Origin: Rhizobium sp. L51/94
GTDB lineage: Bacteria; Pseudomonadota; Alphaproteobacteria; Rhizobiales; Rhizobiaceae
Direction: 5' to 3'
Length of the DNA: 64,000 nucleotides
Assembly: GCF_019355555.1 (NCBI RefSeq)
Contig: NZ_CP072143.1
Span: 1-64,000 of the forward strand
Below, one piece after another: positions 26,648 to 45,900 of this stretch (positions are counted from its first letter, which is position 1; each line of letters opens with the position of its first letter). The notes below the pieces were generated by a model. It made no database searches and had not been told where the DNA came from. It saw only the letters and a program-made list of their open reading frames with translations. The translations under genes and the position numbers were made by a program.

Positions 26648-26715
26648 GTACGCGGAAGGCCGCGGAATCACCTCGCGCGTAGGTGCACGGCCTGGAGTAT
26701 AGTGAGGCTGCTAGG

Positions 26716-28399: not shown

Positions 28400-28444
28400 G
28401 AAGCTATTCGGGTAGATTCCATAAACATTGTCAATGGGATAACA

Positions 28445-28790: not shown

Positions 28791-28813
28791 GAGCTTTCCA
28801 AAAAGCTCTGGTT
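28786..28813. repeat. perfect 12-base hairpin
   Basis: AACCAGAGCTTT (28786-28797) and AAAGCTCTGGTT (28802-28813) are perfect inverted repeats with a 4-base loop, at the upstream edge of the tnpB relic. A second, smaller repeat, AGGAATTC / GAATTCCT, follows near 28886-28906. There is no T-tract on the plus strand. Confidence 0.6.
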
Positions 28814-28927
28814 GCAACATTTTAGAACATAACGAGACCTCGCGTAACATCGGAGTCTGCTATCAAGAGAATGGAAAAACGCGGCGAGGAATTCGCCACG
28901 AATTCCTGAGAAAATAGGGCATCACAA

Positions 28928-29035
28928 ATGACGACGATACAATTCGCGTTAGCAGCAACTATATTTATTTCGTGGCTGTGGATCACGCTGTACGCAGTTA
29001 AGACGAACATCTTAGGCATTGACAAAGCATGGTAG
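28928..29035 (+). CDS. possible small membrane protein
   Basis: A 35-codon frame encoding a strongly hydrophobic helix (MTTIQFALAATIFISWLWIT, then YAVKTNILGIDKAW). The composition fits a single-pass small membrane protein, but the ribosome site is weak and no neighbour suggests a function. Confidence 0.25.
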   Translation: MTTIQFALAATIFISWLWITLYAVKTNILGIDKAW

Positions 29036-29280
29036 CTATCCCTGCCATGAAAAAAGATTCTTGCTCGATTAGTTTCGTGCTATACGATTGCCGACTATGT
29101 TGCGGGGCGATATGACCTCAAATCGACGTCTATGCCCGTGCTGGCGAGGGGCTAAGCTAACATCACTATTGATCGCGCCGCTGCCAAGTTAGCGGAGATA
29201 ATGCGACAGAGCGCCGAATTTTCAATTAAAAATAATCGGGTCGAAGGGGTCGACGAACGGCTTTTACGGATTATCACCGA
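29036..29280. other. gap without recognised feature
   Basis: About 245 bases between the possible small membrane protein and the IS630 relic; no frame, repeat or promoter stands out. Confidence 0.3.
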
Positions 29281-29610
29281 TCAAAACCCATTCGCCCATT
29301 CTCTCCGTCCGATTGACATGATCCGCCAAGGTTGGATTTCGAGCTTTCGCCAAGTATCACAGCAGTGATCGACGATGTCGTCGTAAGATTTAAAGACACG
29401 GTTCAAGAACCATTTTCGCGCATGAAGTCCCAGAGGTTTTCGACCGGGTTTAGCTCCTGCGATTTCGGCGGGAGTGATAGGATGGTGATGTTTTCAGACA
29501 CGACGAGATTGTTGGACATGTGCCAGCCTGCCTGATGCATGATGAGAATGGTGTGGGCATCCTCATCGACATGGCGGGCGATTTCGCGCAGACAGGGGCC
29601 GGAGCACGAG
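29281..29610 (-). pseudogene. IS630-family transposase relic
   Basis: The minus strand reads REIARHVDEDAHTILIMHQA, GWHMSNNLVVSENITILSLP and SQELNPVENLWDFMRE, then after a frameshift NRVFKSYDDIVDHCCDTWRK and MSIGRREWANGF ending at TGA 29281-29283. This is the C-terminal half of an IS630 transposase, a different copy from that at 17141-17520 and in the opposite orientation. The N-terminal half has been replaced by the istB fragment. Confidence 0.85.
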
Positions 29611-29749
29611 CGGCCCAAATCGTCGCTGAGGTCGAACATACGATGAACGTCATGCGGCCCGAAGGATCCGGGGTCTGAGTAGATGTCGTAATGGGCATCG
29701 GGGCAAACATTAGCAGGTCCGATCTCTTAATATGTTGGCTTGAGGGCCT

Positions 29750-29929
29750 GAGTGGTTCAGGCCGCTCGTATTGCCGTGGCGACCACCGGGTCTCCAAAGA
29801 CAATCCCCATTCGCCTACGCTGCGGTTGGAGGTGATGAGGATCGAGCCCTTTTCATAGCGCCGCGACACGAGCTGGAAGAATAGATGTGCGGCATTGGCC
29901 TCGAACGGCAGGTATCCCAGTTCATCAAG
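29750..29929 (-). pseudogene. istB: istB 3' fragment (left of RIT element)
   Basis: The minus-strand frame DELGYLPFEANAAHLFFQLV and SRRYEKGSILITSNRSVGEWG continues the IS21 helper ATPase IstB from its Walker B motif onward. It is the exact continuation of the 5' part at 33416-33920; the RIT element sits between them. Further frameshifts follow (GDPVVATAI appears in another frame), and the end is lost against the IS630 relic. Confidence 0.85.
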
Positions 29930-29955
29930 TAATGTGTAGCACAACATTACTTGAT
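29924..29955. repeat. 12-8-12 palindrome at left RIT junction
   Basis: ATCAAGTAATGT (29924-29935), spacer GTAGCACA, ACATTACTTGAT (29944-29955): perfect 12-base arms around an 8-base spacer, the geometry of a tyrosine-recombinase core site (compare loxP/FRT 13-8-13). It spans the junction between istB and the RIT element. Confidence 0.8.
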
Positions 29956-30042
29956 TAACGTTCACTGCGCAGAGATGTGGAGTTGATACCGCATGAGCCC
30001 GCAACTGCGCACCATTCCAACGATACCACTCCACATAACTGA
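29950..30042 (+). repeat. left terminal inverted repeat of RIT element
   Basis: 93 bases, from CTTGATTAACG to CCACATAACTGA, complementary to 33323-33415 with five mismatches. Internally, ATGTGGAGTTGATACCG (from about 29974) is echoed inverted as CGATACCACTCCACAT (30021-30036), giving two opposed recombinase-binding-like motifs within each end, plus CTGCGCAG. Confidence 0.92.
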
Positions 30043-30092
30043 ATCATCGTCCGCCTAGATTGACCGCTCCCCAAACCCAACAGGAGAGCGCC

Positions 30093-31301
30093 ATGCTAAA
30101 GGTTTTATTCCCGAAGTCTTGCCATTACCAATATTCGCGCTTCGGCGCGGAGCTTGAATTGTTTGCCCGGTGGTTGCTCGCAGTAGGGTATCTCCCTGGT
30201 GCTGCGGCACGCCGTCATGTCCGCCGATTGAAGCGCATCCTCGAGGCCACAGCGGCCCTTGAGTGTGGCCAGTTTATACGCGAAGCCGAATTGGAAGAAG
30301 CGTTAGCCCTCGTTCCTGGCGCTCTGCGCGACGCTTCCACTGAGCGGGCATATCGCCGCTTCCTAGAGGCAGAAAGACGGCTTGAAGAAACAAAGCCGAA
30401 AGGGCCTCTGGAGCACTTGCTGCTACGATATCGAGAATATCTTCGAGACGTAAGGGGGTTAGCACCAGCGACGAGTGGCCAGCATCTGGCAACGATCGAG
30501 GTTTTTCTGTCCTTGTCGGCTGGACCAGCACAGGACCTTTCCGCACTGACATCAGAGCACGTCGAAAACTTCATCCATACCTTGAGCCGCAGAGTGCTGC
30601 GCCAAACGCTCCAGCATAAAGTCGCCCATCTGCGCGCTTTTTTGCGCTTTTGCGGCGATCGTGGTGAGACTGCGCGAGGGCTTGAGCGCATCGATACGCC
30701 CAGAACCTATCGTGGAGAATTGCCGCCTCGTGCCCTTGGTTGGGAGGTGATCGAAAAATTGCTGGCCTCGGTCGCCGGGACTGATTATCTCGGCCGACGT
30801 GACCATGCGATCCTCCACCTCATGGCCTATTACGGTCTGCGGCCTTCTGAGATTGCAGCGCTGACGCTAGACGCGGTCAATTGGAAGGGACGTACTCTGC
30901 GCGTAGAACAGCGCAAGACTCGTTCCACTCTGGTTCTTCCTTTGGCTGACCAGACCCTTGAAATCCTCGACAGATATCTTGCCGAAGGGCGTCCCTGCGG
31001 TACGGTGACGGACGTCCTGTTCCCGAAAGCGCGTAGTCCTGTGGGAGCCCTGACGAGCTGGGGGATATGCGACATCTTCACTAAACGGGCACGGCAAAGC
31101 GGCCTACCGCTCGATGGTGTCTCATCATATGCATTGCGACATTCGTTTGCCATGCGATTGCTAGGCCGAGGCGTCGGGGTAAAAACGATCGGTGACCTGC
31201 TCGGGCACCACAGCCTTGAGAGCACTTGTGTTTATCTTCGCATCGAGACGGACATGCTGCGTACGGTGGCTCTGCCAGTACCTGGCACTGCTGCTCATTG
31301 A
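30093..31301 (+). CDS. ritA: RIT tyrosine recombinase A
   Basis: A 402-residue phage-integrase-family recombinase, the first of three. A basic N-terminal extension (1-105) precedes the SAM-like core-binding domain (106-205) and the catalytic domain (212-395). Active-site residues are R250 (YYGLRPSEIA), K275, Y346-x-x-R349-H (the first His of HxxR is Tyr here), H372 (LLGHHSLESTCVY) and nucleophile Y381. The ATG at 30093 follows AGGAG; the frame is open back to 30060 but without a better signal. It ends 11 bases before ritB. It would cut and rejoin DNA at the element ends together with its partners. Confidence 0.92.
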   Translation: MLKVLFPKSCHYQYSRFGAELELFARWLLAVGYLPGAAARRHVRRLKRILEATAALECGQFIREAELEEALALVPGALRDASTERAYRRFLEAERRLEETKPKGPLEHLLLRYREYLRDVRGLAPATSGQHLATIEVFLSLSAGPAQDLSALTSEHVENFIHTLSRRVLRQTLQHKVAHLRAFLRFCGDRGETARGLERIDTPRTYRGELPPRALGWEVIEKLLASVAGTDYLGRRDHAILHLMAYYGLRPSEIAALTLDAVNWKGRTLRVEQRKTRSTLVLPLADQTLEILDRYLAEGRPCGTVTDVLFPKARSPVGALTSWGICDIFTKRARQSGLPLDGVSSYALRHSFAMRLLGRGVGVKTIGDLLGHHSLESTCVYLRIETDMLRTVALPVPGTAAH

Positions 31302-31312
31302 GGAGAATGGCA

Positions 31313-32290
31313 ATGTTCACAACCATCTCTCCGACACCCCTCGATCAGCCGATTGTGGCATGGCTTGCCCATCAGCGTGCTCTTGGCCGCCGCTATTACC
31401 CGGAGGAAAGGGTTCTAGTGACCTTGCGTGAATTTATCAGCCGCACCCCGGGACAGGATCTTGACCGTGCAAGCTTTGATCGATGGTGTGCCGCATTCCC
31501 TCATCTGGCAAGCAATACCTTGCGTTATCGCCAACGCGTTGTCCGCATGTTCTGCCTTTATCGGCGGCGCAAGGAGCCGGGCTGCTTTGTCCCCGATCCC
31601 TTGTACTTCGCGCGGCCCCGGCCGTACCGGCGTCCCGTTATTGTGGAGCCCGGGCAAATAGCCAGAATGCTGACCGCCGCTAACAATATGCCCGTCGCTT
31701 CTGGATCGCCGCTGCGGCCTGCGGTTTATAGGATGGCCGTCATTCTGCTGTACACGACCGGGATGCGTCGCGGCGAACTGTTGCGCCTTACGCTGGCAGA
31801 CTGTGAGCCTGAAAGTGGAGTGTTACGGGTTCGGGAGTCCAAGTTCCACAAATCAAGAATATTGCCGCTGTCGCCCGACGCACATACCGAATTGTGTAGC
31901 TACCTTCGAAAACGTCTCGCCCCGCCGTTCAGCCGGGATCCCGACACGCCACTTCTTATCAACACGGAAGGCGGTCTTCGTTCCTATACTGGCACTGGGA
32001 TCAGTGGCGGAAACCATGCCCTGTTCAAGGCCGCAAATGTTGAGGATAGCGAGGGCCGACGGCCCCGCATTCACGATCTGCGTCACAGCTTTGCAGTCGG
32101 GGCGCTCATCCGTTGGTATCTGGACGGCGCCGATGTGCAATCGAATTTGCCGAAGCTGGCTCTCTACATGGGTCACGTTAGCATCGCGTCGACGGCATGT
32201 TATCTGCACTTCCTTCCGAAGCTGAGAGCGATCGCCAGTGACCGCTTTGAAGAGGCTTTCGGCGGTCTTGTCAGTGAGGTTGTGGCATGA
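31313..32290 (+). CDS. ritB: RIT tyrosine recombinase B
   Basis: A 325-residue tyrosine recombinase with core-binding domain (10-100) and catalytic domain (110-310). The catalytic set is R152 (TTGMRRGELL), K177/K180, H254-D-L-R257-H, H288 (LYMGHVSIAST) and Y297. The ATG at 31313 has GAGGAGA upstream; longer in-frame starts lie inside ritA. Its TGA overlaps the ritC start as ATGA, so translation of the trio is coupled. Confidence 0.92.
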   Translation: MFTTISPTPLDQPIVAWLAHQRALGRRYYPEERVLVTLREFISRTPGQDLDRASFDRWCAAFPHLASNTLRYRQRVVRMFCLYRRRKEPGCFVPDPLYFARPRPYRRPVIVEPGQIARMLTAANNMPVASGSPLRPAVYRMAVILLYTTGMRRGELLRLTLADCEPESGVLRVRESKFHKSRILPLSPDAHTELCSYLRKRLAPPFSRDPDTPLLINTEGGLRSYTGTGISGGNHALFKAANVEDSEGRRPRIHDLRHSFAVGALIRWYLDGADVQSNLPKLALYMGHVSIASTACYLHFLPKLRAIASDRFEEAFGGLVSEVVA

Positions 32291-33318
32291 GGAAACATCA
32301 ATCCACGGCATTGGGACGAAGCATGGCACGCTTCTTTCAAGAATATCTTCCCGCTCTCCGCGGCATGAGCCATCATACGATCCGGAGCTATCGCGACACG
32401 ATGGTCCTGTTCCTGCGATTTGCAGCGGCAGAGACCAAGGGATCCGTCGAAAGCATCGACGTCTCCGACATCAATGCCGACAGGATCGGTAGCTTTCTCA
32501 CGTCGCTTGAGGTCGAGCGTGGCAACAGCATTGCGACCCGCAATGCAAGGCTGGCGGCGATGCATACCTTTGCGCGGTTCCTGATCTCAGAGCATCCCGA
32601 ACATATGGATAACCTGTAAATGGTGTTGACACTTCCCTTCAAAAGGGGCGCGCGGGTGGCACCTGTCGAATATCTCGAAGAGCCAGAAATCAAGAGCGTC
32701 CTGGCGTGTATCGACCGCCGCACGCCTTCAGGACGGCGGGATTACGCACTGTTCTCGCTGATGTTCAATACGGGTGCACGAGTTCAGGAAATTCTGAACC
32801 TTCGCATTTGTGACCTTCGTCTGGTATCGCCCTGCCAGGTGCGCCTGCATGGCAAAGGCAACAAGGTTCGCCTCTGCCCGATCTGGCGAAACACGGCCCA
32901 GCTTCTTCAGGAATTGATCAACACGCAGCATCCGCCCTCGGATAATCCCGCCGAGCAACGAGTCTTTCTCAACGACCGCGGCACACCGCTGACCCGGTTC
33001 GGTGTTCGATACTTGCTGCGCAAATATGTTGATATGGCCGCGCGGGAAGAGTCCACTCTGGCCGAAAAAAGCATCCATCCCCACTCGCTGCGGCACACAA
33101 CGGCCATCCACCTTCTCAAGGCGGGCGTTGACATTGCCACCATCAGCCAGTGGCTCGGCCACTCGGGCCTGAACGTAACGATGCGCTACGCGCGAGCCGA
33201 TATCGATATGAAGCGGCAAGCGCTCGAACAGGTCTTTCCGGACGTGATGTCATCTACAAAAGATCAGACGATCATTGCTTATGATGGCGGGATGTTAGGC
33301 TGGCTGCGCCGCTTATAG
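32287..33318 (+). pseudogene. ritC: RIT tyrosine recombinase C, interrupted by in-frame stop
   Basis: One continuous frame of 343 codons broken by TAA at 32617-32619. The first 110 codons are the core-binding domain (RGMSHHTIRSYRDTMVLFLR). After the stop an ATG follows immediately and 232 codons encode the catalytic domain: R54 (NTGARVQEIL), K79/K82, H155-S-L-R158-H (HPHSLRH), H181 (WLGHSGLNVTMRY) and Y190, counted from the second ATG. CAA to TAA is the simplest cause. Either the protein is lost, or two pieces are made by stop-start reinitiation at TAAATG. Confidence 0.88.
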
Positions 33319-33322
33319 CAGC

Positions 33323-33415
33323 TCAGTTATGTGGAGTGGTATCGTCGGAAAGGTGCGCAGTTACGGGCTCATGCGGTATCAACTCCACATCTCTGCGCAG
33401 TGCACATTAATCAAG
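33323..33415 (+). repeat. right terminal inverted repeat of RIT element
   Basis: 93 bases from TCAGTTATGTGG to ATTAATCAAG, inverted partner of 29950-30042, beginning 5 bases after the ritC stop. It ends with the junction hexamer ATCAAG, directly followed by the istB 5' part. Confidence 0.92.
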
Positions 33416-33920
33416 GATGAGCAGCTCCGGCCGGGACAGGAGCGTCAACTGCTTGTCGAGTACGCCGTCGTCATGGGCCTTGGCCAGTGTCGCCACCAAA
33501 GTGGCGGCCGCGATAAACTGGACATTGTAGTTCTGGCGGATCGCTTCGCGGCCAAGGCTCAAGGCCAAATGGGTTTTCCCAGTGCCGGGCGCCCCCAGGA
33601 ATAGGACCGTGTCACCGTGAGTGATCCGGCGGCAAGTCGCAAGCTCTCTTATCTGCCTTTGGTCCAGTGATGGCTGCGCGCCGAAGTCAAAACCGTCCAA
33701 CTCACAGACAAAAGGGAACTGAGCGATTTTGCACGACGTCGAGATCCGCCGTTCATCACGACGAGCAATTTCTCGCGACACCAGGAAAGCCAGAGCCTCG
33801 CGCAATGTCCATCTTCGAACGCGCGCTTTCATCGAGGAGTGTATCCAGTTGATCGCGGATCGCAGTCAGCTTCAACCGATCCAGTGTTGCGATCAATAGG
33901 TCATGATCTACTGTCGACAT
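33416..33920 (-). pseudogene. istB: istB 5' fragment (IS21 helper ATPase)
   Basis: Starts at ATG 33918-33920 after GGAGG with STVDHDLLIATLDRLKLTAI and DESARSKM, shifts frame near 33832, and continues LREALAFLVSREIARRDERR, GDTVLFLGAPGTGKTHLALS (Walker A, GAPGTGKT) to SRPELLIL, where the RIT element interrupts Walker B. IstB is the AAA+ ATPase that assists IS21 transposition. This copy is broken by a frameshift as well as by the insertion. Confidence 0.88.
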
Positions 33921-34010
33921 CACCAGCCTCCTCCAATAATAGCTTCATACTGGGCAAGCGGTCGCAACAGCATAGCAGGTTCGGTCTCAATACATTCGGC
34001 GTTTACCCGC
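33921..34010 (-). pseudogene. possible istA C-terminal remnant
   Basis: Just upstream of istB, where IstA should end, one frame reads AECIETEPAMLLRPLAQYEA IIGGGW and stops 4 bases before the istB start region. The position and the R-P-L-x-x-Y-E ending are compatible with an IstA tail, but the fragment is short and no catalytic part of IstA is present. Confidence 0.35.
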
Positions 34011-34550
34011 CCGTCAAGCCCGCAACGCTAACAAAATGCGCCGATCCACGATACGTTGTCGTCGACCAAGACATAGCGCATGGTCCGCAACAACCTGACC
34101 ACCGTGGCGAACAATGTCGCGGCCGCCCATAACGACAACCTGCACGCTCACCGATCAGACGCCAGGGTATAGAATAACTGTTCGTATCGAGGTCGACGGC
34201 ACAATCAGCCTGAACCTTACGGATGAGATCCCGCAGTTGCCCGAAGGGCGCACGTCCAGAGAGAGGTCGTAGCGCGCCGGCCTAAACGCAGGGGAATGCG
34301 GCGAGCAAAGGTCGCATTGGCGCGTAAGCTGGCGACAGTGCTCCATCGCATCTGGGTCGATGGAACAGAATTAGTCTGGGGCCAACAACTGGCGAGCATG
34401 GTTGCATAACCGGAAACCGAAAAGTTTGGGCGAGAAAGAAACCTCGCCCCATCAGGTCCCGTCGCCGGGGATCGGTCATCCCCCGTTCGAATCCCGAACA
34501 AGTTGACATTCTTATTGGATGAACGTTGCTGCATGCGTGGGTCGTTCAGT
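34011..34550. other. 540 bases without recognised gene
   Basis: Between the IS21 relic and the propeller-like gene. Several frames are open (for example 34217-34615 on the minus strand), but none shows a ribosome site or family motif. A TTCGAATC sequence near 34487 looks like a tRNA T-loop but has no pairing arms. Confidence 0.4.
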
Positions 34551-35846
34551 TTAACGTCCAGCATATTCAAAAAGCGCCTGATCTTCGGAGATAGCCACAA
34601 TGTATCCACCTCCAATAAGGCTTGTCGGTGTTCGAATGGTTTTTTCCAATGCCTTGGTTGTTGTGTTTATGACGGAGATGAGACCGTCGCCACCATGCGT
34701 GGCAAATGCCCATTTTCCGTCCGGTGTAATAGCAGCGTATCTGCCTTCACCGGCAACAGGTGTGGATCCGGAACGCGGCCGTTTTGTCAAGGATTGCAAG
34801 GGAATGTTGCCCACGATTGAACGAAATCCAGGAGATTGACTTTCGACATTAATCAATTTCAGAAAATCACCCTCGGGTTCGATCGTCGCGTAGGCAGCAA
34901 GTGTTGATGAAACTCCGCCTCTGCTGATGAGGCCTTTTGACAGCGGCGTCCTTTTTTCCGTGGCTGTTCTGATGTCGATCCAAAGGATATCCACGGATGC
35001 CGTCGCCCAGTCTGCGGGAATGACTACGGATACCGTCGGGCCAAACACTGTCTGTTGATCGGCAGTCATGCGCTGGCGATAATTTTGCCCGCCCGCTTTT
35101 CCGGCTACATCCCATGACACAGTCTTTTGCAGGCTCAGTCCTGCGGCTGTCAGCGCGCATATTACCATTCCCTTTGTGGTCGAGACACTTAGCGTCTGGG
35201 ACACACTGCTGAAGCTTCCTCCATGCCCCACTCCCACCGATAGAGAGGACTCCGGAGGAAATGTGCTTGCCGGCAATTGTGTAACAACACCCTTCAGAAG
35301 TTGATCGAATGGGTACGCTTCGAGATTTATTGAACGGTTCAGTATGACCTGCGCCGGAGAACCACCGACGAGGACCCCGAGCTCCGGCTCTTGTTTGGTT
35401 GTATCAACGTTTACTTGGCGTGACAGCTGTCTCCGGATATCGGCTAGGGTCAGAGTCTCGATTACATCCTCATCGTTATCTGATGTTGCAGCGACAAATC
35501 TTTGACTGGTGTCCACGGCAATCCACCCGAAGCGAGCGCCATGAACTAGGGGCGCTGACATCCGAACGGCGATTCTGGGCACGTCGCTATTAACATCAAG
35601 CACGTCCATCTCTTCGCGCTTTTCGTCCATGAATAGCAGTTGGTTATGAGATAATGAAATCGTCCCGGCATGACTGCCAAGCTTTATACCGGGAAAGTCG
35701 GCTAAAAGCGTCATTTCGGGTACGGAATAGACGAGTAAATGCTCTGCCTGCGTGTCAGCGACGATCAGCCTTGCCTCTCCAGCAGCAGCAGAATGGGTGA
35801 AGCAAATCAAAAAAATAGCAACCATATGTGAATTTAATAATCTCAT
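34551..35846 (-). CDS. exported propeller-like protein of unknown function
   Basis: A 431-residue protein with a signal peptide (1-22, ending SAAAG). The rest is a run of short beta-rich repeats typical of a propeller (LIVADTQAEHLLVYSVPEM, ISLSHNQLLFMDEKREEM, IAVDTSQRFVAATSDNDED, AAITPDGKWAFATHGGDG, ISVINTTTKALEKTIRTP), the last two being YVTN/WD-like. It has few Cys or His, so metal binding is not suggested. It is divergent from the ATP-grasp gene across a palindrome-bearing promoter region, which links the two. No specific function is recognised. Confidence 0.75.
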   Translation of the reverse strand: MRLLNSHMVAIFLICFTHSAAAGEARLIVADTQAEHLLVYSVPEMTLLADFPGIKLGSHAGTISLSHNQLLFMDEKREEMDVLDVNSDVPRIAVRMSAPLVHGARFGWIAVDTSQRFVAATSDNDEDVIETLTLADIRRQLSRQVNVDTTKQEPELGVLVGGSPAQVILNRSINLEAYPFDQLLKGVVTQLPASTFPPESSLSVGVGHGGSFSSVSQTLSVSTTKGMVICALTAAGLSLQKTVSWDVAGKAGGQNYRQRMTADQQTVFGPTVSVVIPADWATASVDILWIDIRTATEKRTPLSKGLISRGGVSSTLAAYATIEPEGDFLKLINVESQSPGFRSIVGNIPLQSLTKRPRSGSTPVAGEGRYAAITPDGKWAFATHGGDGLISVINTTTKALEKTIRTPTSLIGGGYIVAISEDQALFEYAGR

Positions 35847-35896
35847 CCCAAAAACCTATCTAGAAGAACTTCTACTCGTCGGCGCGGCACCTGTCA

Positions 35897-35918
35897 GTGT
35901 AATGATATTTCATTACAC
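35897..35918. promoter_or_regulatory. 9-4-9 palindrome, probable operator
   Basis: GTGTAATGA (35897-35905), spacer TATT, TCATTACAC (35910-35918) is a perfect inverted repeat in the 208-base divergent region between the propeller-like gene and the ATP-grasp gene. Size and symmetry fit a dimeric HTH repressor; the regulator is unknown. Confidence 0.6.
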
Positions 35919-36054
35919 GGGTATTGCAAATGATTTGTTGTGGTAGGCGCAATTTACGGCCGACCTGTCGCTTACGAGCAAAGCCAGAACAGGGTTTCGC
36001 AAATCCTAACGGATCTCGCGCGTCGTAGCGCCGCCAACCAATAGGAGTTTGAGA

Positions 36055-37104
36055 ATGTCAGAGATCGAAAAGTGTGACACGATGCACGTTAGTTCGTCTA
36101 TCGTTGACACTCTTAAAAGGGTGTGCGCGCAAATTGATGCAAAAATCCTGGTCGAAGAGACATGGAATTGCGTCGGTCAGATAACCTACAAAAGCGGAGT
36201 TCGTCGCTATTTTCGGACGTCGACGTTCGATCTAAACACTATGGGCGCATCGTCAATTGCTCGTGACAAGCAATATTCGCGATTCTTTCTTCACTCTATG
36301 GGTTATCCGGCTACCGAGGGGGAAAGCTTCTTTTCAGAGACGTGGGCTAGGAAAGTGAAGGCTTCGGACCGGGGATATATCGCAGCATTAGCATACGCCC
36401 GGCAGATTGGATTCCCCGTCTTCGTTAAGCCAAACAGTAAGAGTCGGGGGGTGGGCGTAAGCTTGGTCCGCAATGAAGGCGAGTTTAACGAATCTGCAAG
36501 GATCGCTTTGCAAGAGGATAAGGTTATCCTCGTCGAACGCCCGGCCGTCGGCAATGACTACCGCGTAGTCGTGCTGGACGGCAAAGTCATCTCAGCATAC
36601 CATCGCCTCCCGTTAACAGTCACAGGGGACGGCCAGTTGTCACTTCGTGAACTAGTCGATGGCGTTCAGCAAGAGTTCCGCCGGAACGGCCGTGGCGAAA
36701 CCATTGATTTAGCGGACTTTCGGATCAGGCGCACTTTGGAAGCAGAGGGGCTAACATTTGAAAGCGTCCTTGAGAGTGGCAAATCACTGAAGATGTTAGA
36801 AAATGCTAACCTTTCGTCAGGAGGTACAGCGATTGACGTCACCGACCGAATAAGTGAGGGTTTCACGAGACTCGCAAGGGATGTTTCGAGGGATATGGGC
36901 CTCCGTTTGGCGGGTGTCGATTTGATGATCGACGGGTTGATCGAAGACACCCCGTCGGCTAGTCCGCACCGGATTATTGAAATCAATTCTGCCCCTGGAC
37001 TGGACCACTACGCTTCGCTTGGGATCGCTCAGCGGAAGATCGTGGATGACTTGTATTATAAGTTGGTGATAGCGATGGAGCGCCCGGGAGAAAGGTTTTT
37101 GTGA
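36055..37104 (+). CDS. stand-alone ATP-grasp ligase (cyanophycin-synthetase-like)
   Basis: A 349-residue protein whose whole length corresponds to the ATP-grasp module of cyanophycin synthetase and bifunctional glutathione synthetase. Visible: IARDKQYSRFFLHSMGYPAT, FPVFVKPNSKSRGVGVSLV (ATP lysine and glycine loop), VERPAVGNDYRVVVLDGKVI, ENANLSSGGTAIDVTD, GLRLAGVDLMIDG and the metal site IIEINSAPGL. The Mur-ligase half of cyanophycin synthetase is absent. Such enzymes join a carboxylate to an amine through an acyl phosphate. AGGAG at 36042-36046 selects ATG 36055. Possible products: a short peptide or peptide-modified molecule (inference). Confidence 0.85.
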   Translation: MSEIEKCDTMHVSSSIVDTLKRVCAQIDAKILVEETWNCVGQITYKSGVRRYFRTSTFDLNTMGASSIARDKQYSRFFLHSMGYPATEGESFFSETWARKVKASDRGYIAALAYARQIGFPVFVKPNSKSRGVGVSLVRNEGEFNESARIALQEDKVILVERPAVGNDYRVVVLDGKVISAYHRLPLTVTGDGQLSLRELVDGVQQEFRRNGRGETIDLADFRIRRTLEAEGLTFESVLESGKSLKMLENANLSSGGTAIDVTDRISEGFTRLARDVSRDMGLRLAGVDLMIDGLIEDTPSASPHRIIEINSAPGLDHYASLGIAQRKIVDDLYYKLVIAMERPGERFL

Positions 37105-37450
37105 CGACCAATTTTGCGTGCAGCTTTGTGCTTTCGCACGAAGATTGCTGTCGAGCCGTGGAAAACGACGGTAAATATCTTAAAAATTGTAAGCCTCGTT
37201 TCGGACGTCTGGATGTCGAAGGCGTTAAGCTACGCATGGGCGCTGCCAGTCGGGGTATTCTGAGGTCTTCCCGTGATGTGACTCGCCGACCTGCGGTACC
37301 CCTCTAGTAGTGATGGTTGATCGAGGAGTTGCCTGCAGAGATCGATACGATCCCTTTTAAAAGTGATAGAGCTGCAACAAAATCGAATATTTCTACACAC
37401 ACCGCTGCAAAGACATGAGGTAGTTCTGTTAATAACCAGGAGTAATTATT
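37105..37450. other. gap between ATP-grasp gene and small receiver-like gene
   Basis: 346 bases. A 68-codon frame overlaps the ATP-grasp stop as GTGA (37101) but has no family likeness and no ribosome site. The last part is AT-rich and ends in the ribosome site CAGGAG (about 37437-37442) of the next gene, so a promoter probably lies here. Confidence 0.4.
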
Positions 37451-37942
37451 GTGACGCAGCAGTCCGAAATTGAGCACCGCAGCCCAATCCTCGTCTTTCT
37501 TACAAAGCGCGCAGCTGATGTGGTGATCTCACAGCTTGAGAAGCATGGATATACAGCGGTCGCTGTCTACACTGTCCCTGCATTGTTCGATGCACTCCGC
37601 TCAGGAACTTATACCCTGGCAGTAACAACCCGGCCAGGTATCGCTACGGTTCGAAACATAAAGCTCATTCCCGTCTTGAACCTTGAAGTGTTTTTTTATG
37701 ATGGCCACATTGATCAAACAGATTCCACCGCTTGGCCAAGGCGATTTGATGGCAATGCTTTCATGGAGCGCCTCAGAATCTTGAACGTTCCGAGGCTAAC
37801 GCGCGGATTTAGCAAATATGACAATCCTTCCTCAGAGCACCGCCGAAAAGTTGGGCTCTTCTCTACGTTGTTGAATGCTAGCATTTCATTTTATAACAAC
37901 CGGCTTCCTGCGATGCGAGTTGTTAAAAATGAACGTCGTTAG
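37451..37942 (+). CDS. small receiver-like protein (paralogue B)
   Basis: A 163-residue protein starting with GTG 37451, with CAGGAG 9 bases upstream. Residues 10-90 align with the protein at 23236-23682 (PILVFLTKRAADVVISQLEK, VPALFDALRSGTYTLAVTT, NLEVFFYDG). The predicted strand-helix order resembles a receiver domain lacking the phosphoacceptor. The C-terminus is basic and unlike paralogue A. It overlaps the next gene by 14 bases, so the two are translationally linked. Function unknown. Confidence 0.7.
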   Translation: MTQQSEIEHRSPILVFLTKRAADVVISQLEKHGYTAVAVYTVPALFDALRSGTYTLAVTTRPGIATVRNIKLIPVLNLEVFFYDGHIDQTDSTAWPRRFDGNAFMERLRILNVPRLTRGFSKYDNPSSEHRRKVGLFSTLLNASISFYNNRLPAMRVVKNERR

Positions 37943-38270
37943 GCAGAAGAGCCTTGGGCTAGATGAGGCCAGTGATACAAACAGCAAAATAGACCAATCG
38001 CTTGAAGCGGAGAAGAGTCCGTTTACGATTGCTCGGGAGAAACCTCGTCTCTGGATGTCCACGGTGGATGAGTTTCAAAATGCAGCTTTGAAGCGGGAGC
38101 TGCTTCTTTATGGAGGTTGCATCATCATGATATTGGCAATCGGCGCGGCTTCGACCGCGGGGTTAGTTATCACTGCCTTTTTCGTCCTCATTTCGATTGG
38201 CAACATCTTTAAGAAAGCGGTTCTCTCGGTGATAGGCGAAATACGTAATCACGTCGCTTTGAGGCGCTAA
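37929..38270 (+). CDS. small membrane protein
   Basis: A 113-residue protein (ATG 37929, inside the previous gene in another frame). A hydrophilic N-terminal part (SLGLDEASDTNSKIDQSLEA, WMSTVDEFQNAALKREL) is followed by two close hydrophobic segments (YGGCIIMILAIGAASTAG and LVITAFFVLISIGNIF) forming a hairpin or long helix, and a basic C-terminus. It probably sits in the inner membrane beside, or partnering, the receiver-like protein. No family recognised. Confidence 0.6.
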   Translation: MNVVRQKSLGLDEASDTNSKIDQSLEAEKSPFTIAREKPRLWMSTVDEFQNAALKRELLLYGGCIIMILAIGAASTAGLVITAFFVLISIGNIFKKAVLSVIGEIRNHVALRR

Positions 38271-38635
38271 GCGACTGGGCTAGTTCCCATGGCATTTTTT
38301 TCCTGTTTGTCGCGCGCGCTTGCTACATTACCATCGTGCTTATCGATAGATAGATTAGGCCCAAACAGTAGCTGGTTCTATCTCACTACCGTTCCGCGAC
38401 CGAGCCGCCACAACATACCGCAACATATTCGCATAGAACTTTGCAAGACAATCGACACCTTTTCTGATAAAGCGCTCCAGCCATCGAATTCCATGGGAAT
38501 GCTCTAGTCACTGGGCGCGAGGAGCCACTACGTCCAGCGGAAGGGACTTGTGTGGGATCTCGAACAATCAAAGATCTGATTGCCGCCCGCTGCAGACATT
38601 GAGACTAGGACGAGTGCAAATTAGGGCGACCAAAT
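38271..38635. other. upstream region of two-component system
   Basis: 365 bases with no convincing gene; a 72-codon frame (38289-38507) lacks a ribosome site. Expected to hold the promoter of the regulator-kinase pair; no specific operator was seen. Confidence 0.35.
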
Positions 38636-39370
38636 ATGGCGTACGATATGGTGGTTTCGGACCAGTCCAATGTACTCATCGTCGAGGATGACCCTGACAT
38701 CGCCGGCATGCTAGTCGAACTGGTTCAAGGAAATGGCTTTCAGGCGATGTCGGTCGCAAGTGGGCTCGAGATGGACCGACTTTTGCTCATCCAAACCTTC
38801 GATCTTATCGTACTTGATGCGATGCTTCCAGGCGAGGACGGTTTTAGCATATGTAGGCGATTGCGATCATCACGGTCGGTTCCGATCCTGATGTTGACCG
38901 CGATGCGTGAGGACATCGATCGTATTCTTGGCCTGGAGCTCGGAGCTGATGACTATGTGACCAAGCCTTTCAATTCTCGTGAATTAATAGCGCGGATAAA
39001 AAGCATCTTGCGTCGAAGCGCACACGGGAAGGATTCGGAACCCGATCTAGCGCCTATGACATTTGCAGGCTGGCGTATCGACCCCAAGAGCAGGCAGCTT
39101 CATGATCCAGATGGAGTGCAGGTTTCCATGACGACAGCTGAATTTGATCTACTCCTCGCGTTTTGCTCAAACCCGAACAAAATTCTAAACCGCGAGCAAC
39201 TACTTTCGATGACCCATGCGGGATCTGCCGGACCCGTCGAGCGAAGCATCGACGCTCATATCAGCCGGGTTAGACAGAAGATCGAGCCCAATCTTAAAGA
39301 TCCCACCTTTATCAAAACGGTGCGGCTTGGGGGGTATATGTTTGCCTCTAAGGTTGAGCAAACCCGATGA
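38636..39370 (+). CDS. OmpR-family response regulator
   Basis: A 244-residue regulator: receiver domain at 11-125 with acidic pocket E17-D18-D19, phosphoacceptor D61 (LIVLDAMLPGEDGF), T88 and K110 (YVTKPF), then an OmpR/PhoB winged helix at 145-240 (VSMTTAEFDLLLAF, RSIDAHISRVRQKIEP, TVRLGGYMF). It overlaps the histidine kinase by 4 bases (ATGA), so they form one system. The nearest downstream genes are a lipoprotein and an RND pump, which are candidate targets. Confidence 0.95.
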   Translation: MAYDMVVSDQSNVLIVEDDPDIAGMLVELVQGNGFQAMSVASGLEMDRLLLIQTFDLIVLDAMLPGEDGFSICRRLRSSRSVPILMLTAMREDIDRILGLELGADDYVTKPFNSRELIARIKSILRRSAHGKDSEPDLAPMTFAGWRIDPKSRQLHDPDGVQVSMTTAEFDLLLAFCSNPNKILNREQLLSMTHAGSAGPVERSIDAHISRVRQKIEPNLKDPTFIKTVRLGGYMFASKVEQTR

Positions 39371-40707
39371 GAAATTTACGTCGAGCTTCAATACAGCAAC
39401 AGATCCTTACACTTGCGACATTGCTTGTTGTGCTGGTTTCAGTCGTCGCTATGTTCACCGAGCCGTTCATATACGGTAGACAAGATCGTGAGTTCCAAAA
39501 TGGCCTGTTCGCTGGCCGAGCGGAAACGCTATTCGTATTATTGAAAGATGCCAAGACACCTCAGGAAGAAAAAGCTGTTCGGGATACAGCGGCAAGCATG
39601 GGGATTCTGGTCGAAAAGCTGCTGGCGAATGAGTTGTCGACTTCGCAGGTTGTTATCTCCTCTCCCGATGAACTCGTATCGCGGGCGAAAGCTCTAACAG
39701 CGGGTAATATACTCGAGTCCATCAGCTACTTATTTTTAGGCGAAATTGTGCCTAATGTTTTGACTGTGCGCGTCGATACAGAACGTGTCTTTACATTTTC
39801 CGTACCCAAGTTTCCTGCTGAAGTGTGGTTCGCGCCTGCCGTCGCGAGCGGACTTCTGAAAATTGTTGTGCCTCTCCTTGTCCTTGCCTATTTCAGCAGC
39901 CTGTTGATTACCAATCCGCTGCGGCGTTTCGCGGCGGCTGCAAAGCGAGTGAGTTTGGACGACAGCACTGACGAGCCGTTTCTGGCAGATGGTGCGTCTG
40001 AGATACGGAGCTTGGCGGAGTCATTGAATGTCATGCGCACCCGGATTCAGACCATGGCGGAATATCGAACCCGCGTCCTGAGTTCTGTCGGGCATGATCT
40101 TCGTACCCCTCTGACCCGTCTTAAAATGCGGGCCGAGCGCTCAACCGAGCCGGAACTCAAACAACTTATGTTAAGTGACATAACAACCCTAGCCTTTATG
40201 GTGGACGAATGTCTCGCCTACTTCAATGATCCATCTGCTACTGAAAAGGCACGTAAGGTCGACCTGTCTAGTCTTTTGCAAACAATCACATCCGACTTTG
40301 TCGATACCGGCGTTGACGTTACCTATATAGGACCTAGGAAGTTAGTATATGTTTGTAAGCCGCAGGCAATGACCCGCGCGCTCAACAATCTCATCGAAAA
40401 CGGCTCTCGATACGCAACGCGCATCGAACTGAAACTCAAAAACGTTGTCGATGGTGAGATCGAAATTCAAGTTTGCGACAACGGCCCGGGGTTATCGGGG
40501 GATTTGAAAGCAAAGGTCTTGGAGCCTTTTTTTAAAGCTGACGAATCGCGCCAAATTGGCATCAAGGGCGGTCTCGGACTCGGCCTTACGATCGCACAAG
40601 GCATTATTATAAAGGGGCATGGCGGGCGGTTCGAGCTGCGAGACAGTGTTCCAAATGGGCTCACAATTGCTATCAAACTCGTTCCGCAGCAGAGCGACCG
40701 TTTATAG
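39367..40707 (+). CDS. EnvZ-type sensor histidine kinase
   Basis: A 446-residue inner-membrane kinase: first helix 12-30, periplasmic sensor of about 125 residues (31-158), second helix 162-182, HAMP linker (NPLRRFAAAAKRVSLDD), dimerisation/phosphoacceptor box SSVGHDLRTPLTRLKMRAE with H243, and an HATPase domain with N-box NNLIENGSRYA, G1 DNGPGL and G2 GLGLGLTIAQGI. The H-box sequence GHDLRTPLTRLK places it in the EnvZ/RstB-like group. It would phosphorylate the regulator encoded just upstream. The signal is unknown. Confidence 0.95.
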   Translation: MRNLRRASIQQQILTLATLLVVLVSVVAMFTEPFIYGRQDREFQNGLFAGRAETLFVLLKDAKTPQEEKAVRDTAASMGILVEKLLANELSTSQVVISSPDELVSRAKALTAGNILESISYLFLGEIVPNVLTVRVDTERVFTFSVPKFPAEVWFAPAVASGLLKIVVPLLVLAYFSSLLITNPLRRFAAAAKRVSLDDSTDEPFLADGASEIRSLAESLNVMRTRIQTMAEYRTRVLSSVGHDLRTPLTRLKMRAERSTEPELKQLMLSDITTLAFMVDECLAYFNDPSATEKARKVDLSSLLQTITSDFVDTGVDVTYIGPRKLVYVCKPQAMTRALNNLIENGSRYATRIELKLKNVVDGEIEIQVCDNGPGLSGDLKAKVLEPFFKADESRQIGIKGGLGLGLTIAQGIIIKGHGGRFELRDSVPNGLTIAIKLVPQQSDRL

Positions 40708-40837
40708 CTGGTTAGGCGTCGTATAGTCGCCGAACATATTGAAACATTTCAGAAGACACCGCAACACGTAGATCGAATACAACAGGCTCCAGCAAACGAT
40801 GGTGTCAGAACACCCTTTCTTGGAGCCTATAGAGAAC

Positions 40838-41518
40838 ATGAAATTTATTCAGTTTAGTATCGGGTTGATCGCAATCTCTGCCGTTGTCTCGGGGTGTACG
40901 ACCGCTGACCCGACAGTCTATGCTGGGCTTGCTTCAGCTTCGCAGCTTCGACCCGCCACCGACGACGCGAGCGGTCGGGTGCCTTATCGCTACACGAGCA
41001 ACGTTGACTGGCGGCAGTATGATAAGATCATCGTGGATCCCGTCACCATATATTCAGGGCCTGACAATCAATTCGTCAAGATCGCTGACAGGGATAAGGT
41101 TGTCCTTGCTAATTATATGCAGAATGAATTCACAGCAAAGCTGAGGACGAAGTACGCGGTGGTGAGCAATCCCGGGCCCCGTACTGCGAGGCTTCACCTG
41201 ACCTTGACCGGCGCTAAGGACACAACGCCTGTTCTCGGCCCGTTTTCGCATATTGACGTAGGCGGGGGTGTCATCAACGCAGCTCAGGCGGTTCGCGGTC
41301 GTGAGGGGACAATGGCGGGTTCTGTCAGCTACGCCGTGGAACTTTATGATGCTTCGAGCAATCGGCTTCTATCTTCCTATGTCACCAAACAATATCCAAG
41401 CGCGATGAACATCGGTGCAACCTTTGTGCCTCTTAAGGGCTCCAAAGTCGGGATTGAAAAAGGCGCTGACGCGCTGTTGGAACAGATGTCGAAGCCTGTG
41501 CTCATCGCGGGTAATTAG
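40838..41518 (+). CDS. DUF3313-type lipoprotein
   Basis: A 226-residue lipoprotein with lipobox VVSGC (Cys at 20). The mature part (YTSNVDWRQYDKIIVDPVTI, FTAKLRTKYAVVSNPGPRTA, LHLTLTGAKDTTPVLGPFSH) matches the DUF3313 pattern, a small alpha/beta domain of outer-membrane-anchored proteins with unknown function. The frame opens at 40799, but ATG 40838 begins the signal peptide. It lies between the two-component system and the RND genes on the same strand. Confidence 0.85.
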   Translation: MKFIQFSIGLIAISAVVSGCTTADPTVYAGLASASQLRPATDDASGRVPYRYTSNVDWRQYDKIIVDPVTIYSGPDNQFVKIADRDKVVLANYMQNEFTAKLRTKYAVVSNPGPRTARLHLTLTGAKDTTPVLGPFSHIDVGGGVINAAQAVRGREGTMAGSVSYAVELYDASSNRLLSSYVTKQYPSAMNIGATFVPLKGSKVGIEKGADALLEQMSKPVLIAGN

Positions 41519-41753: not shown

Positions 41754-42926
41754 ATGCCGTTTCTGCTTCAAACCACGCGCGCCGCCTTATTGGCGTGCGC
41801 CGTCCTCCCGCTGGCGGCCTGCAGCAAGGAGAACAGCGATAAAAAGGCTTCGGCAGCACCACCAACACCTGTGTCCGTCGTGCAGGTGAGGCCGGAAACT
41901 CTACCGGTGGTCAGTGAATTGCCGGGGCGCGTTGCTTCGATGATTACTGCTGACGTCCGTCCGCGCGTCACGGGGCTGGTGCTGAAGCGCGTTTTCGAGC
42001 AAGGAGCTGGCGTTAAAGAAGGCGATCTCCTTTATCTGATTGACCCGGCCCCCTTTCAGGCCAAGGTCGATTCAGCACAAGCTGCAGTTGACAGCGCCAT
42101 AGCGGCCCGGAAATTGGCTTCCCAGAAGTCCGATAGACAAACACAGTTGCAGCAAAGGGGGGTTACCAGCGCAGACGACAGCGAGACGGCAATCGCAACG
42201 CTGGCCCAGAGCAACGCGGAGGTCTCCCAAGCGGAAGCGAATTTGCGCTCGGCCCAGCTCGACCTTCAATATACGCAGATCAAGGCTCCCATCACCGGCA
42301 CAATCGGCCGCGCGCTCATCACCGAAGGCACGTTGGTCAGCCCAACCTCCGACGTGATGGCGACAATCCAACAGATTGATCCAATTTATGCTGACTTCAC
42401 CCAGCCCGCCGACACACTGATACTATTACGAAATGCTATCAAGACGGGTCAGCTTAAGGAGGAGGGCCGGGAGGGGGTAGCCATGAAGCTCGTGACGGAG
42501 CAGGGCAGTCCGTACCCGCACGAAGGCAAGCTGTTGTTTTCTGAAGCAAGCGTGAATGCGCAGACTGGGCAACTGATCCTTAGGGGCGAGTTTCCAAATC
42601 CGGAACACAATCTGCTTCCGGGCATGTATGTTCGCTCAAAACTGCAGCAGGGTTCTCTGGAAGGAGCATTCGCTGTGCCGGAGCAAGCAGTGCAACGCGA
42701 TACTGCCGGAAAACCTCAGTTATATATTGTCGACGCCAAAGGCAAAGTCGAAGTTCGCAACGTGACGCTCGGCTGGATTGTTGAAGGCCGCTGGGTTGTA
42801 GTCAAGGGTTTGGCCCCTGAAGACAGGGTCGTGGTGGAGGGATTTCAGAAGTTTGCCCCCGGCGCGGTTGTCAAGGCTGAGCCGTGGCCCGGGACAGCCT
42901 CGACAAGCTCCTCCGCAGAGAAGTAG
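41754..42926 (+). CDS. RND efflux periplasmic adaptor lipoprotein (MexA/AcrA type)
   Basis: A 390-residue membrane-fusion protein: lipobox LAAC (Cys 23), beta-barrel and lipoyl halves (PRVTGLVLKRVFEQGAGVKE, GDLLYLIDPAPFQAKVDSAQ), alpha-helical hairpin (about 95-165), the return lipoyl motif LQYTQIKAPITGTIGRALIT, and a C-terminal membrane-proximal domain. It bridges an inner-membrane RND pump and an outer-membrane channel. It is 11 bases upstream of the pump gene, an evident operon. Confidence 0.95.
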   Translation: MPFLLQTTRAALLACAVLPLAACSKENSDKKASAAPPTPVSVVQVRPETLPVVSELPGRVASMITADVRPRVTGLVLKRVFEQGAGVKEGDLLYLIDPAPFQAKVDSAQAAVDSAIAARKLASQKSDRQTQLQQRGVTSADDSETAIATLAQSNAEVSQAEANLRSAQLDLQYTQIKAPITGTIGRALITEGTLVSPTSDVMATIQQIDPIYADFTQPADTLILLRNAIKTGQLKEEGREGVAMKLVTEQGSPYPHEGKLLFSEASVNAQTGQLILRGEFPNPEHNLLPGMYVRSKLQQGSLEGAFAVPEQAVQRDTAGKPQLYIVDAKGKVEVRNVTLGWIVEGRWVVVKGLAPEDRVVVEGFQKFAPGAVVKAEPWPGTASTSSSAEK

Positions 42927-42937
42927 GGATAATTTCG

Positions 42938-45900
42938 ATGCCAGCCTTCTTTATCGAACGTCCAGTGTTCGCTTGGGTTCTCGCCATCGCAATTATGCTC
43001 GGGGGGGCGATCTCGCTCTTCCTACTTCCTATTTCCCAGTATCCAGATGTAGCGCCGCCTCAAATCACCGTCACGGCCACCTATCCTGGCGCTTCCCCGG
43101 AAGATACTTACGAAGGCGTGACGCGCCTGATGGAGGAGGAACTGAACGGCGTTCCTCGGCTGCTCTATTATGAATCAACATCCGACGCGGCTGGTTCGAT
43201 CAAGATTACTGTGACATTCGAGCCGGGAACGGTTCCTGAAACGGCGGCCGTCGACGTCCAAAACCGCATCAAACGGGTCGAAGCCAGGCTCCCGGCATCG
43301 ATTGTTCAACAAGGAATCAACGTCGACACAGCGGGGGGCGGAACGCTGCTTTTGGTGGCGCTCACCTCTAAAAGTGGTTCGACGGACGGCATTTCACTCG
43401 GCGATTACATGAGCCGAAACATTGCCAATGAGTTGCGCCGTGTTCCGGGTGTCAGCAACGCCCAACTGTTTGGTAGCGAGCGCGCCATGCGCGTGTGGCT
43501 CAACCCCGACAAATTGCTTGGCCTCAATCTGACGCCCGCCGACGTCACAGCAGCTATCCAGGCCCAAAATGCGCAGGTCGCTGCAGGCCGTCTTGGCACG
43601 TCCCCATCTTTGCCGGATCGCCGCACAACAGGCTCCCTATTGATCAAAGGCCAACTCACCACGCCGGAAGAATTCGGTAAGATCGTGCTTCGCGCAGAAA
43701 CTGACGGCTCGACTGTTCGACTTGGTGACGTGGCGCGAATTGAAGTGGGTGCAGATAGCTATGCGACATCGGTTCGCATCAATGGGAAGCCTGCCGCTGG
43801 AGCTTCCATAGAACTTGCCCCTGGCGGCAACGCGCTGAAGACAGCCACCGCCATTAGGGCTCGCCTGACCGAACTTGCACCCTCCTTTCCGAGTGATATT
43901 GAATATTCCATACCCTACGACACCACACCGTTCGTCAACATTTCTATCGAGCAGGTGCTGATGACGCTTGTCGAGGCAATGGTTCTCGTGTTCGCCGTGA
44001 TGTTCCTCTTCCTCCAGAACTTTCGCTATACGATCATTCCAACCATTGTGGTGCCAATCGCTTTGCTTGGTGCTTGTGGCGTCATGTACGTGCTTGGGTT
44101 CTCCGTCAACGTTCTCACCATGTTCGGCATGGTCCTCGCCATTGGGATTCTGGTGGATGACGCGATTGTCGTTGTCGAGAATGTCGAGCGGATCATGACC
44201 TTAGAAGGGCTTTCACCCAAGGAGGCGACAAAGAAGGCGATGACTGAGATCAGCGGGGCCGTCATTGGCATCACACTGGTTTTGACAGCCGTCTTCGTTC
44301 CTATGGCGTTCTTCCCCGGCGCTGTCGGCGTGATTTACAGGCAGTTTTCTTTAACAATGGTCGCTTCCATTCTTTTCTCGGCGTTCCTAGCCCTTTCACT
44401 GACGCCGGCACTCTGCGCGACGTTTCTTAAGCCCGTCGAGAAAGGCCAGTCTCACACAAAAAAGGGCTTCTTCGGCTGGTTCAACCGAGGCTTTCACCGA
44501 GGGTCGAAGACGTATAGCGGATGGGTGGCAAGCCTTCTGCGAAGGGCAGGTCGGGTGATGCTCGTATATCTCGCCGTGGCTGTGGTGACGGCGTGGATGT
44601 TCCTGCAGCTTCCATCGTCATTCTTGCCCAACGAAGACCAGGGGACGTTGCTGGCTCAGGTCCAGGGGCCAGCCGACGCGACAGCAAAGCGTACGCTCGA
44701 TTCTATCAAGGCCATGGAGAAAATCGTCACCTCAGAACCATCTGTTGAGCGTCTCGTCGCGATCAGCGGGTTTAGTTTCTCTGGATCGGGCGAAAACGCA
44801 GGACTCTCGTTCATCACTCTCAAGGATTGGAGCGAGAGGACGGCCAATCAGTCGGCACAGGCACTGTCGGCAAAGTTCAATGCCGGCTTCCAGATGATCA
44901 AGGATGCAAGTGCCTTCGCATTGTCACCACCTGCAATTTCCGGCCTGGGGAGCACCAACGGCTTCGCATTCCGGCTCCAGGACCGAGGAAATCTGGGGAC
45001 TGCAGCGCTGAACGAAGCGCGCGACCAATTTCTGGCAGAGGCCCGCAAGAGCCCCGTTTTGATTGGGGTGATGGTTGAGGGCCTTTCGGACGCGCCGCAA
45101 ACTGTGCTGACAATCGACCGCGAGAAGGCAAATACTTATGGCGTGACATTTGCCGATATCAACCAGACAATCAGTATTAACCTCGGCTCGTCCTACGTCA
45201 ACGACTTCCCGAACTCCGGACGGATGCAACGCGTGACTGTGCAGGCGGATGCGGGAAAGCGTGGGACCATCTTTGATGTGATGAAACTTACCGTCAGAAA
45301 CGCGGCGGGCGGAATGGTTCCGATTTCAGCATTCGCGAGATACGAATTCACCAAAGGATCCGCACAGATTGTCGGCTACAACGGTTTCCCGGCAGTCCGG
45401 TTCAGCGGGCAGGCAGCAAGCGGGTATTCATCCGGTGACGCCATCACGGAGGTCGAGCGCATCGCCAAGACGCTTCCAGCAGGCTTTGGCTACGAGTGGA
45501 CCGGCCAGTCGCTGCAAGAGATCCAGTCGGGATCGCAAGTTCCGATGCTTCTTGGCCTTTCCGTGCTGCTGGTGTTTCTTTGCCTTGCCGCGCTCTACGA
45601 GAGCTGGGCTATTCCACTCTCTGTGCTGCTCGTCATCCCTCTCGGTATTATCGGGGCTGTTGGCGCGGTGATGCTGCGCGATATGCCCAACGACGTCTAC
45701 TTCAAGGTCGGCCTGATTACGATCATGGGTTTGTCGGCGAAGAACGCTATTCTCATTGTCGAGTTCGCAAAAGACCTAAGGGCTGCTGGCAAGTCGTCAG
45801 TTGACGCTGCGGTCGAGGCGGCGCATCTTCGCTTCAGGCCAATTTTGATGACCTCACTGGCATTTTCCCTTGGCGTTGTACCTCTCGCTATTGCCACTGG

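Follow-up and report, generated by a model that had tools for sequence, protein, structure and literature searches.

We analysed a divergent gene pair within a window of 64,000 bp, by which we mean the whole stretch of Rhizobium DNA studied (NZ_CP072143.1, positions 1 to 64,000). These bases open contig C3 (364,788 bp) in a Rhizobiaceae genome of 6.05 Mb. The window most likely lies on a companion plasmid of Rhizobium rhododendri L51/94, not on the Ti plasmid. On the reverse strand, positions 34551–35846 encode an exported propeller-like protein of 431 amino acids. On the forward strand, positions 36055–37104 encode a stand-alone ATP-grasp ligase of the cyanophycin synthetase type (349 amino acids), which starts at an ATG, the mechanically delimited open reading frame beginning 6 bases earlier at a TTG. 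Within the 208 bp that separate the two genes lies a perfect 9-4-9 palindrome, GTGTAATGATATTTCATTACAC (35897–35918), which we propose as a Zur operator; its distance to the ATG is 50 bp for the propeller gene and 136 bp for the ATP-grasp gene. Two further forward-strand genes follow, one for a 163-amino-acid protein (37451–37942) and one for a hydrophobic 131-amino-acid protein (37875–38270), overlapping by 68 bases. No Rfam match was found within 34000–39000.

A preliminary description, made from the sequence alone, had grouped these four genes into one cluster serving a pathway. On balance, we favor a different arrangement, in which two unrelated units adjoin: a divergent propeller/ATP-grasp pair around a proposed Zur-type operator, and the front of a two-component module. 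Zinc control of the pair is a better organizing idea than a four-gene pathway.

The palindrome in the divergent promoter

The palindrome is present as first described and is a real operator candidate. Its pattern, with up to three mismatches allowed, occurred in none of 100 shuffles of the window, and when the intergenic stretch was shuffled 2000 times, a perfect inverted repeat of this size, whatever its sequence, arose in 11. The site was scored with an alphaproteobacterial Zur matrix built from five Paracoccus sites tested by electrophoretic mobility shift assay, as tabulated in an excerpt of PMC5387054 (Table 7). Against a matrix maximum of 26.25, the palindrome scores 20.97 and ranks third among 127,972 window positions, the first two ranks being both strands of a single site at 21356. 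Its score was never attained when the intergenic stretch was dinucleotide-shuffled 2000 times, and the palindrome is identical to the aztA box at 13 of 15 positions. A scan of 1.564 Mb (26% of the genome, 32,500 N) returned four sites scoring at least as high, the palindrome included, none of them within an open reading frame of at least 150 amino acids.

A consensus search of the intergenic stretch identified two overlapping promoter-like matches, both directed toward the propeller gene and with the −10 element within the palindrome, and none directed toward the ATP-grasp gene. The sigma-70-like promoter (TTTGCA - 17 - TATCAT, 35902–35930, reverse strand) is a consensus match only. Judged as a member of the Zur regulon, the site resembles tested Zur operators, lies within the promoter and overlaps the predicted propeller −10. 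The distances of 50 and 136 bp to the two start codons are comparable to those of the R. leguminosarum Zur boxes, which an excerpt of PMC12183173 places 41 bp from znuA and 153 bp from zniC.

The genome scan also revealed Zur-like sites elsewhere. The best in the scanned part, C2:288243 (locus L024; score 25.7), lies near genes for a Peripla_BP_2 protein, a phosphoesterase and a TonB receptor, and marks a candidate zinc or zincophore uptake locus. The site C3:349968 (L081; 23.9) has no clear intact gene alongside. Within the window, the box at 21356–21378 (21.4) lies upstream of a ROS/MUCR regulator gene, at a distance of about 93 bp, and the same box is found on plasmid pTi6.2 (L002:14674); it may tie this regulator to zinc, or may be a motif used by the regulator itself. 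A weaker site, C1:14872 (L028; 16.2), lies about 60–80 bp before a cobW GTPase gene, which is followed by a WD40 protein gene. Pairs of this kind are reported near Zur sites, and cytosolic WD40 propellers linked to such sites, in excerpts of a COG0523 survey (PMC2770081).

The exported propeller and the ATP-grasp ligase

The initial assignment of an exported beta-repeat protein holds: a signal peptide was judged present by reading, and the propeller-type repeat was matched, both at repeat level to the YVTN propeller of PDB 1l0q (E 8.7e-11) and to the NCBIfam YVTN repeat model (18.4 bits, under the cut-off of 27.85). The family is rare. Among 394 genomes of the bacterial family, the protein itself and one relative, in genome G044, were found; no relative beyond the protein itself was detected in 397 genomes of the order or in 385 of the class, and none in a phage collection. 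Of 72,556 plasmids, two had the family. A genome-contig scan with the propeller alignment yielded 284 stretches that fit the pattern and no relatives, a silence that says little because no G044-type sequence was returned either. No description of the exported family was found in the excerpted open-licence literature on Zur and beta-propellers; in a Corynebacterium paper, the propeller appears solely in the title of a reference.

Of the three relatives (Bosea, 39–40% identity; G044, 37%; Rhodococcus, 26–27%), the two closer ones have a Zur-like promoter box and the Rhodococcus one does not. In G044, which we take to be probably Liberibacter crescens, a site scoring 23.8 (rank 1 of 35,974, the best in the 18-kb locus) stands 20 bp before the propeller start. 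According to an excerpt of PMC3885570, L. crescens has Zur, whereas 'Candidatus Liberibacter asiaticus' (CLas) and 'Candidatus Liberibacter solanacearum' (CLso) do not. The Bosea promoter site ranks third of 34,366 in its locus; of the two better sites, one lies between Fur-family and cobW genes and one just before a family-5 binding-protein gene, in the same cluster. The neighbors of the Bosea propeller gene encode two cobW GTPases, ZnuA, a Fur-family protein and a PRA-CH paralogue, and COG0523/HisI sets of this sort are known from Zur regulons, as excerpted from PMC2770081. The family resembles Zur-regulon COG0523 clusters (cobW GTPase, ZnuA, HisI paralogue, peptide-type ABC transporter) in the Zur-like box at the two closer relatives and in the embedding of the Bosea gene within such a cluster. 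Unlike these clusters, the window pair has no such company: it is carried by a plasmid, with mobile DNA on one side and a signaling module on the other, and the partner of the propeller is an ATP-grasp ligase.

The ligase corresponds to the ATP-grasp module of cyanophycin synthetase without the Mur-ligase half, in agreement with the preliminary description. It matches positions 194–450 of the 871-position cyanophycin synthetase model (170.9 bits against a cut-off of 877) and, with 158.5 bits against 850, the ATP-grasp part alone of TIGR02068, the Mur-ligase part being absent. A predicted structure with a mean predicted local distance difference test score (pLDDT) of 62.8 has its best PDB matches in CphA1/CphA2 and GshAB. 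Structure prediction, proposed at the outset as a guide to the acceptor, supported the family and gave no indication of the acceptor. The ATP-grasp module is thus shared with CphA1/CphA2 and the GshB half of GshAB, its best matches in sequence and fold, but in contrast to CphA the window enzyme is only 349 residues long, without the Mur-ligase half or most of the N-terminal region, and scores far under the curated cut-offs.

This family is rare as well: the protein itself and two relatives were found in the 394 family genomes, and 5 of the 385 class genomes had a match at 1e-30, a figure that includes the protein itself and a frame as long as CphA (909 amino acids). A genome-contig scan for this family returned five loci, from a Phyllobacteriaceae bacterium, Zhengella mangrovi, an alphaproteobacterial metagenome-assembled genome and two Roseibium; the first three are the same loci as those found in G123, G021 and G1015. 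No propeller relative was seen at any of eight loci with ATP-grasp relatives outside pTi6.2 (one of them a 3.8-kb stretch), and no ATP-grasp relative at any of the three loci with propeller relatives. Searches of open-licence full-text papers found none joining ATP-grasp with Zur and zinc limitation, and none joining it with a zincophore.

Reading the loci of the relatives by eye, we noted an ABC-transporter gene directly upstream of the ATP-grasp gene in two of them (L004 and L005), a second ABC-type gene preceding the first in L050, and a Rieske-type protein encoded downstream of one relative; the two Roseibium loci have other neighbors. At L048 (G810, 7975–10397), again read by eye, a stand-alone CphA-type ATP-grasp gene is immediately followed by a separate Mur-ligase-like gene, which appear to form a split cyanophycin-synthetase-like pair.

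The two-component module and plasmid pTi6.2

The 163- and 131-amino-acid proteins belong elsewhere. A tblastn search with the former matched 31 plasmid records, from which eight loci besides pTi6.2, in stretches of 9–16 kb, were opened. None of the eight carries this ATP-grasp gene, seven have a detectable 131-amino-acid protein (L058 does not), and all have a response regulator and a kinase downstream of the 163-amino-acid gene, annotated in seven and unannotated in the eighth. The kinase genes of the seven annotated loci are labeled 'histidine kinase' in three and 'ATP-binding protein' in four, and the latter four match the window kinase at 50–55%. On pRt1078 the regulator and kinase stand behind insertion sequences, and in CP087973 (L055) an unannotated regulator in two pieces (73–87%) is accompanied by an unannotated kinase (61%).

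The window counterparts, all on the forward strand and identified by a Pfam scan and by comparison with the other plasmids, are a response regulator (38636–39370), a sensor histidine kinase (39367–40707) and a DUF3313 gene (40799–41518). Identities to the window are 77–85% for the regulator and 50–77% for the kinase in all seven annotated loci, and 62–63% for the DUF3313 protein in the three compared. The 163- and 131-amino-acid genes are therefore the front of a common rhizobial regulator/kinase/DUF3313 module, apart from the zinc pair. The 163-amino-acid protein had been called receiver-like, a label that finds no support: it matches no Pfam and no NCBIfam family at E ≤ 1, and no Response_reg match was found. 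As to the 131-amino-acid 'membrane protein', the gene is present, and the membrane assignment comes from reading a hydrophobic stretch only.

In two of the plasmids, the gene directly before the 163-amino-acid gene is a 68–69% identical relative of the outer-membrane beta-barrel gene at 25795–26415 (forward strand) of the window. Because of this adjacency, the propeller gene, palindrome and ATP-grasp gene can be seen to lie between two genes that are neighbors elsewhere, the beta-barrel gene being the left-side marker of the insertion. Compared with the rhizobial and agrobacterial plasmid modules, the window thus has homologous genes in the same order (163-amino-acid protein, small protein, response regulator, histidine kinase, DUF3313) but differs in the propeller/ATP-grasp cassette between the outer-membrane and 163-amino-acid genes.

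On pTi6.2, the counterparts of window positions 6910–26687 and 35861–38357 are directly joined, and 9.17 kb (26688–35860) are missing, comprising an IS66 transposase, a recombinase trio, an istB piece and the propeller gene. The shared stretch is 98.4% identical in DNA, with 6 differences in the 1050 bases of the ATP-grasp gene. A second copy of the 163-amino-acid protein, 34% identical, is encoded on pTi6.2 (L002:16555-16863).

Proposed zinc control, alternative readings and flanking DNA

In the arrangement that we favor, zinc-bound Zur would occupy the palindrome when zinc is plentiful and, by overlapping the predicted −10 element, keep the propeller gene silent; under zinc shortage, Zur would be released and the gene turned on. 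The exported propeller would then most likely bind periplasmic zinc and either deliver it to a zinc importer or keep it in store for one, in the manner of AztD with AztC. The ATP-grasp enzyme, sharing the operator, may be induced together with the propeller and would, like its relatives, join an amino acid to an acid via an acyl-phosphate step. The whole unit would have been inserted into the regulator/kinase/DUF3313 module. The analysis shows the likeness of the operator to tested Zur sites, the Zur-like box at the two closer of three propeller relatives, the zinc neighborhood in Bosea and the separateness of the module; that Zur binds here, that the propeller binds zinc, and how the ATP-grasp gene is co-regulated and on what substrate its enzyme acts, we infer. 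The strongest support is for control of the propeller by Zur. The propeller is probably a rare zinc-starvation protein that is not AztD by sequence but perhaps AztD-like in its working, and by this analogy it likely binds zinc. Zur control of the ligase is plausible from the shared operator alone, no relative lending support, because the box lies 136 bp from the ATP-grasp start, a distance comparable to the 153 bp of zniC.

Several observations weigh against this interpretation, and some of them are what would be expected if the palindrome were the operator of another, for example local or plasmid, regulator, its likeness to zinc boxes coincidental and the propeller and ligase unrelated neighbors. 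The core of the palindrome, ATATTT, departs from the usual TTATAA. Scoring high does not by itself establish Zur, since better sites precede the ROS/MUCR gene (21356) or no clear gene (C3:349968), with no zinc gene seen near either, and the looser pattern GTAATGNNATNNCATTAC, with up to three mismatches, is not enriched genome-wide (65 occurrences against 60 for the reversed control). The boxes before the genome's own zinc ABC operon and the Bosea propeller gene score just 14.5 and 15.1, respectively; the matrix is therefore a blunt tool, which misses some Zur sites and does not prove each match. Two FUR-family genes were found in the genome, neither shown to be Zur. The Rhodococcus relative, unannotated and in another gene setting, has no site above 6.6 in its 17-kb stretch with the alphaproteobacterial matrix. 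The phylum of Rhodococcus may use another Zur motif. For the propeller itself, a single-sequence AlphaFold model reached a pLDDT of 31, and the comparison drew on only three close sequences. H59 and H208 are invariant in the three closer propeller proteins, the window protein included. At the ATP-grasp gene, none of the seven relatives scanned, of eight, has a Zur-like site above 12.1; the best scores were 12.0 in L049–L053 and 10.8 in L048, and the L047 site of 15.5 is about 8 kb away. Zinc therefore appears to track the propeller and not the ligase. In addition, pTi6.2 retains the palindrome core and the ligase without the propeller. Here the palindrome has the position expected of an operator belonging to the propeller gene, which speaks for loss over a lucky insertion, so pTi6.2 would have lost the propeller rather than never gained it. 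The intergenic stretch differs from that of pTi6.2 at 14 of 194 bp with no difference in the 18-bp core, too few to mean much. A coincidental likeness nevertheless seems unlikely to us, if worth keeping in view, because in the two closer relatives, from different genera (37–40%), a Zur-like box is among the best three sites of the locus and the Bosea propeller gene sits in a zinc cluster.

If zinc control of the propeller is accepted, the protein might be sought in AztD, which serves the AztABCD importer as a zinc metallochaperone in the periplasm (Paracoccus denitrificans, Citrobacter koseri; PDB 6CK1, 6CMK, 6N01) and to which it is similar in export, propeller-type character (for the window protein at repeat level), length (about 400–430 amino acids) and association with zinc starvation: the window gene has a Zur-like box, and P. 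denitrificans aztD is strongly induced under zinc starvation, as an excerpt of PMC5387054 reports. We give true membership next to no credence. The AztD model NF038015 is absent from the NCBIfam matches at E ≤ 1 and has no match in this genome, profile comparison gave a probability of 1.1%, and identity is 15–16% in an alignment with three of the four AztD loci (L063 was left out), in which the HGxHxD, HHG and HGE ligand motifs are all missing. With zinc ligands as in an excerpt of PMC6689063, neither of the two AztD sites (the His/His/His pore site; HGxHxD with a C-terminal His) has a counterpart, the motifs being missing and the C terminus not His. AztD membership was thus rejected; unlike AztD, the window propeller has no detectable sequence relation to the family, no zinc-ligand motifs and no place in an azt operon. 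It is very improbable, likewise, that the ATP-grasp gene is a decaying cyanophycin synthetase fragment. The best family matches do fall in the middle of CphA and only two relatives besides the protein itself occur in the 394 family genomes, but relatives in other genera are likewise stand-alone and mostly of similar length, the changes against pTi6.2 comprise four synonymous and two nonsynonymous codons, and K125, D289, E309 and N311, with the NLSxGG and PG motifs, are kept in all six sequences of an alignment of the window protein and all five genome-contig-scan loci (L053 read from 9959, with no start codon upstream). These four residues presumably bind nucleotide or metal. The gene is thus not obviously a truncated cphA, and the original view of a free-standing module stands.

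Its grouping of the four genes into a single pathway that forms peptides or amides and has an envelope component does not, and we grant that pathway scarcely any chance. The ATP-grasp, 163- and 131-amino-acid genes do occur together on pTi6.2, but this co-occurrence is one event and not independent conservation, because the stretch is 98.4% identical DNA; otherwise the genes were largely found never to occur together, for at each of the eight other plasmid loci opened the 163-amino-acid gene has regulator and kinase genes downstream, and this ATP-grasp gene is missing. A variant within the zinc arrangement, in which the Zur-controlled ligase would make a small acidic zinc-binding peptide or amide (a zincophore or periplasmic buffer) and the propeller would capture or deliver the complex, is a long shot.

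Zinc control of the pair, if true, would bring into the zinc-starvation response an exported propeller family that has no name and is separate from AztD, and would set an ATP-grasp ligase of no known substrate beside a Zur-type operator. The locus also shows how a cassette came to sit within a widespread signaling module on a companion plasmid of a tumor-forming Rhizobium.

On the far side of that module, genes for an HlyD-type adaptor and an AcrB-type resistance-nodulation-division pump (41754–46072) lie immediately 3′ of the response regulator, kinase and DUF3313 genes. On the propeller side, three tandem phage-integrase-family genes (30060–33318) are flanked by 93-nt inverted repeats of 95% identity (29950–33415), and an IS21 istB piece (33407–33832) adjoins the trio. 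The stretch 29950–33415 looks like a recombinase-in-trio element, landed in an istB gene.

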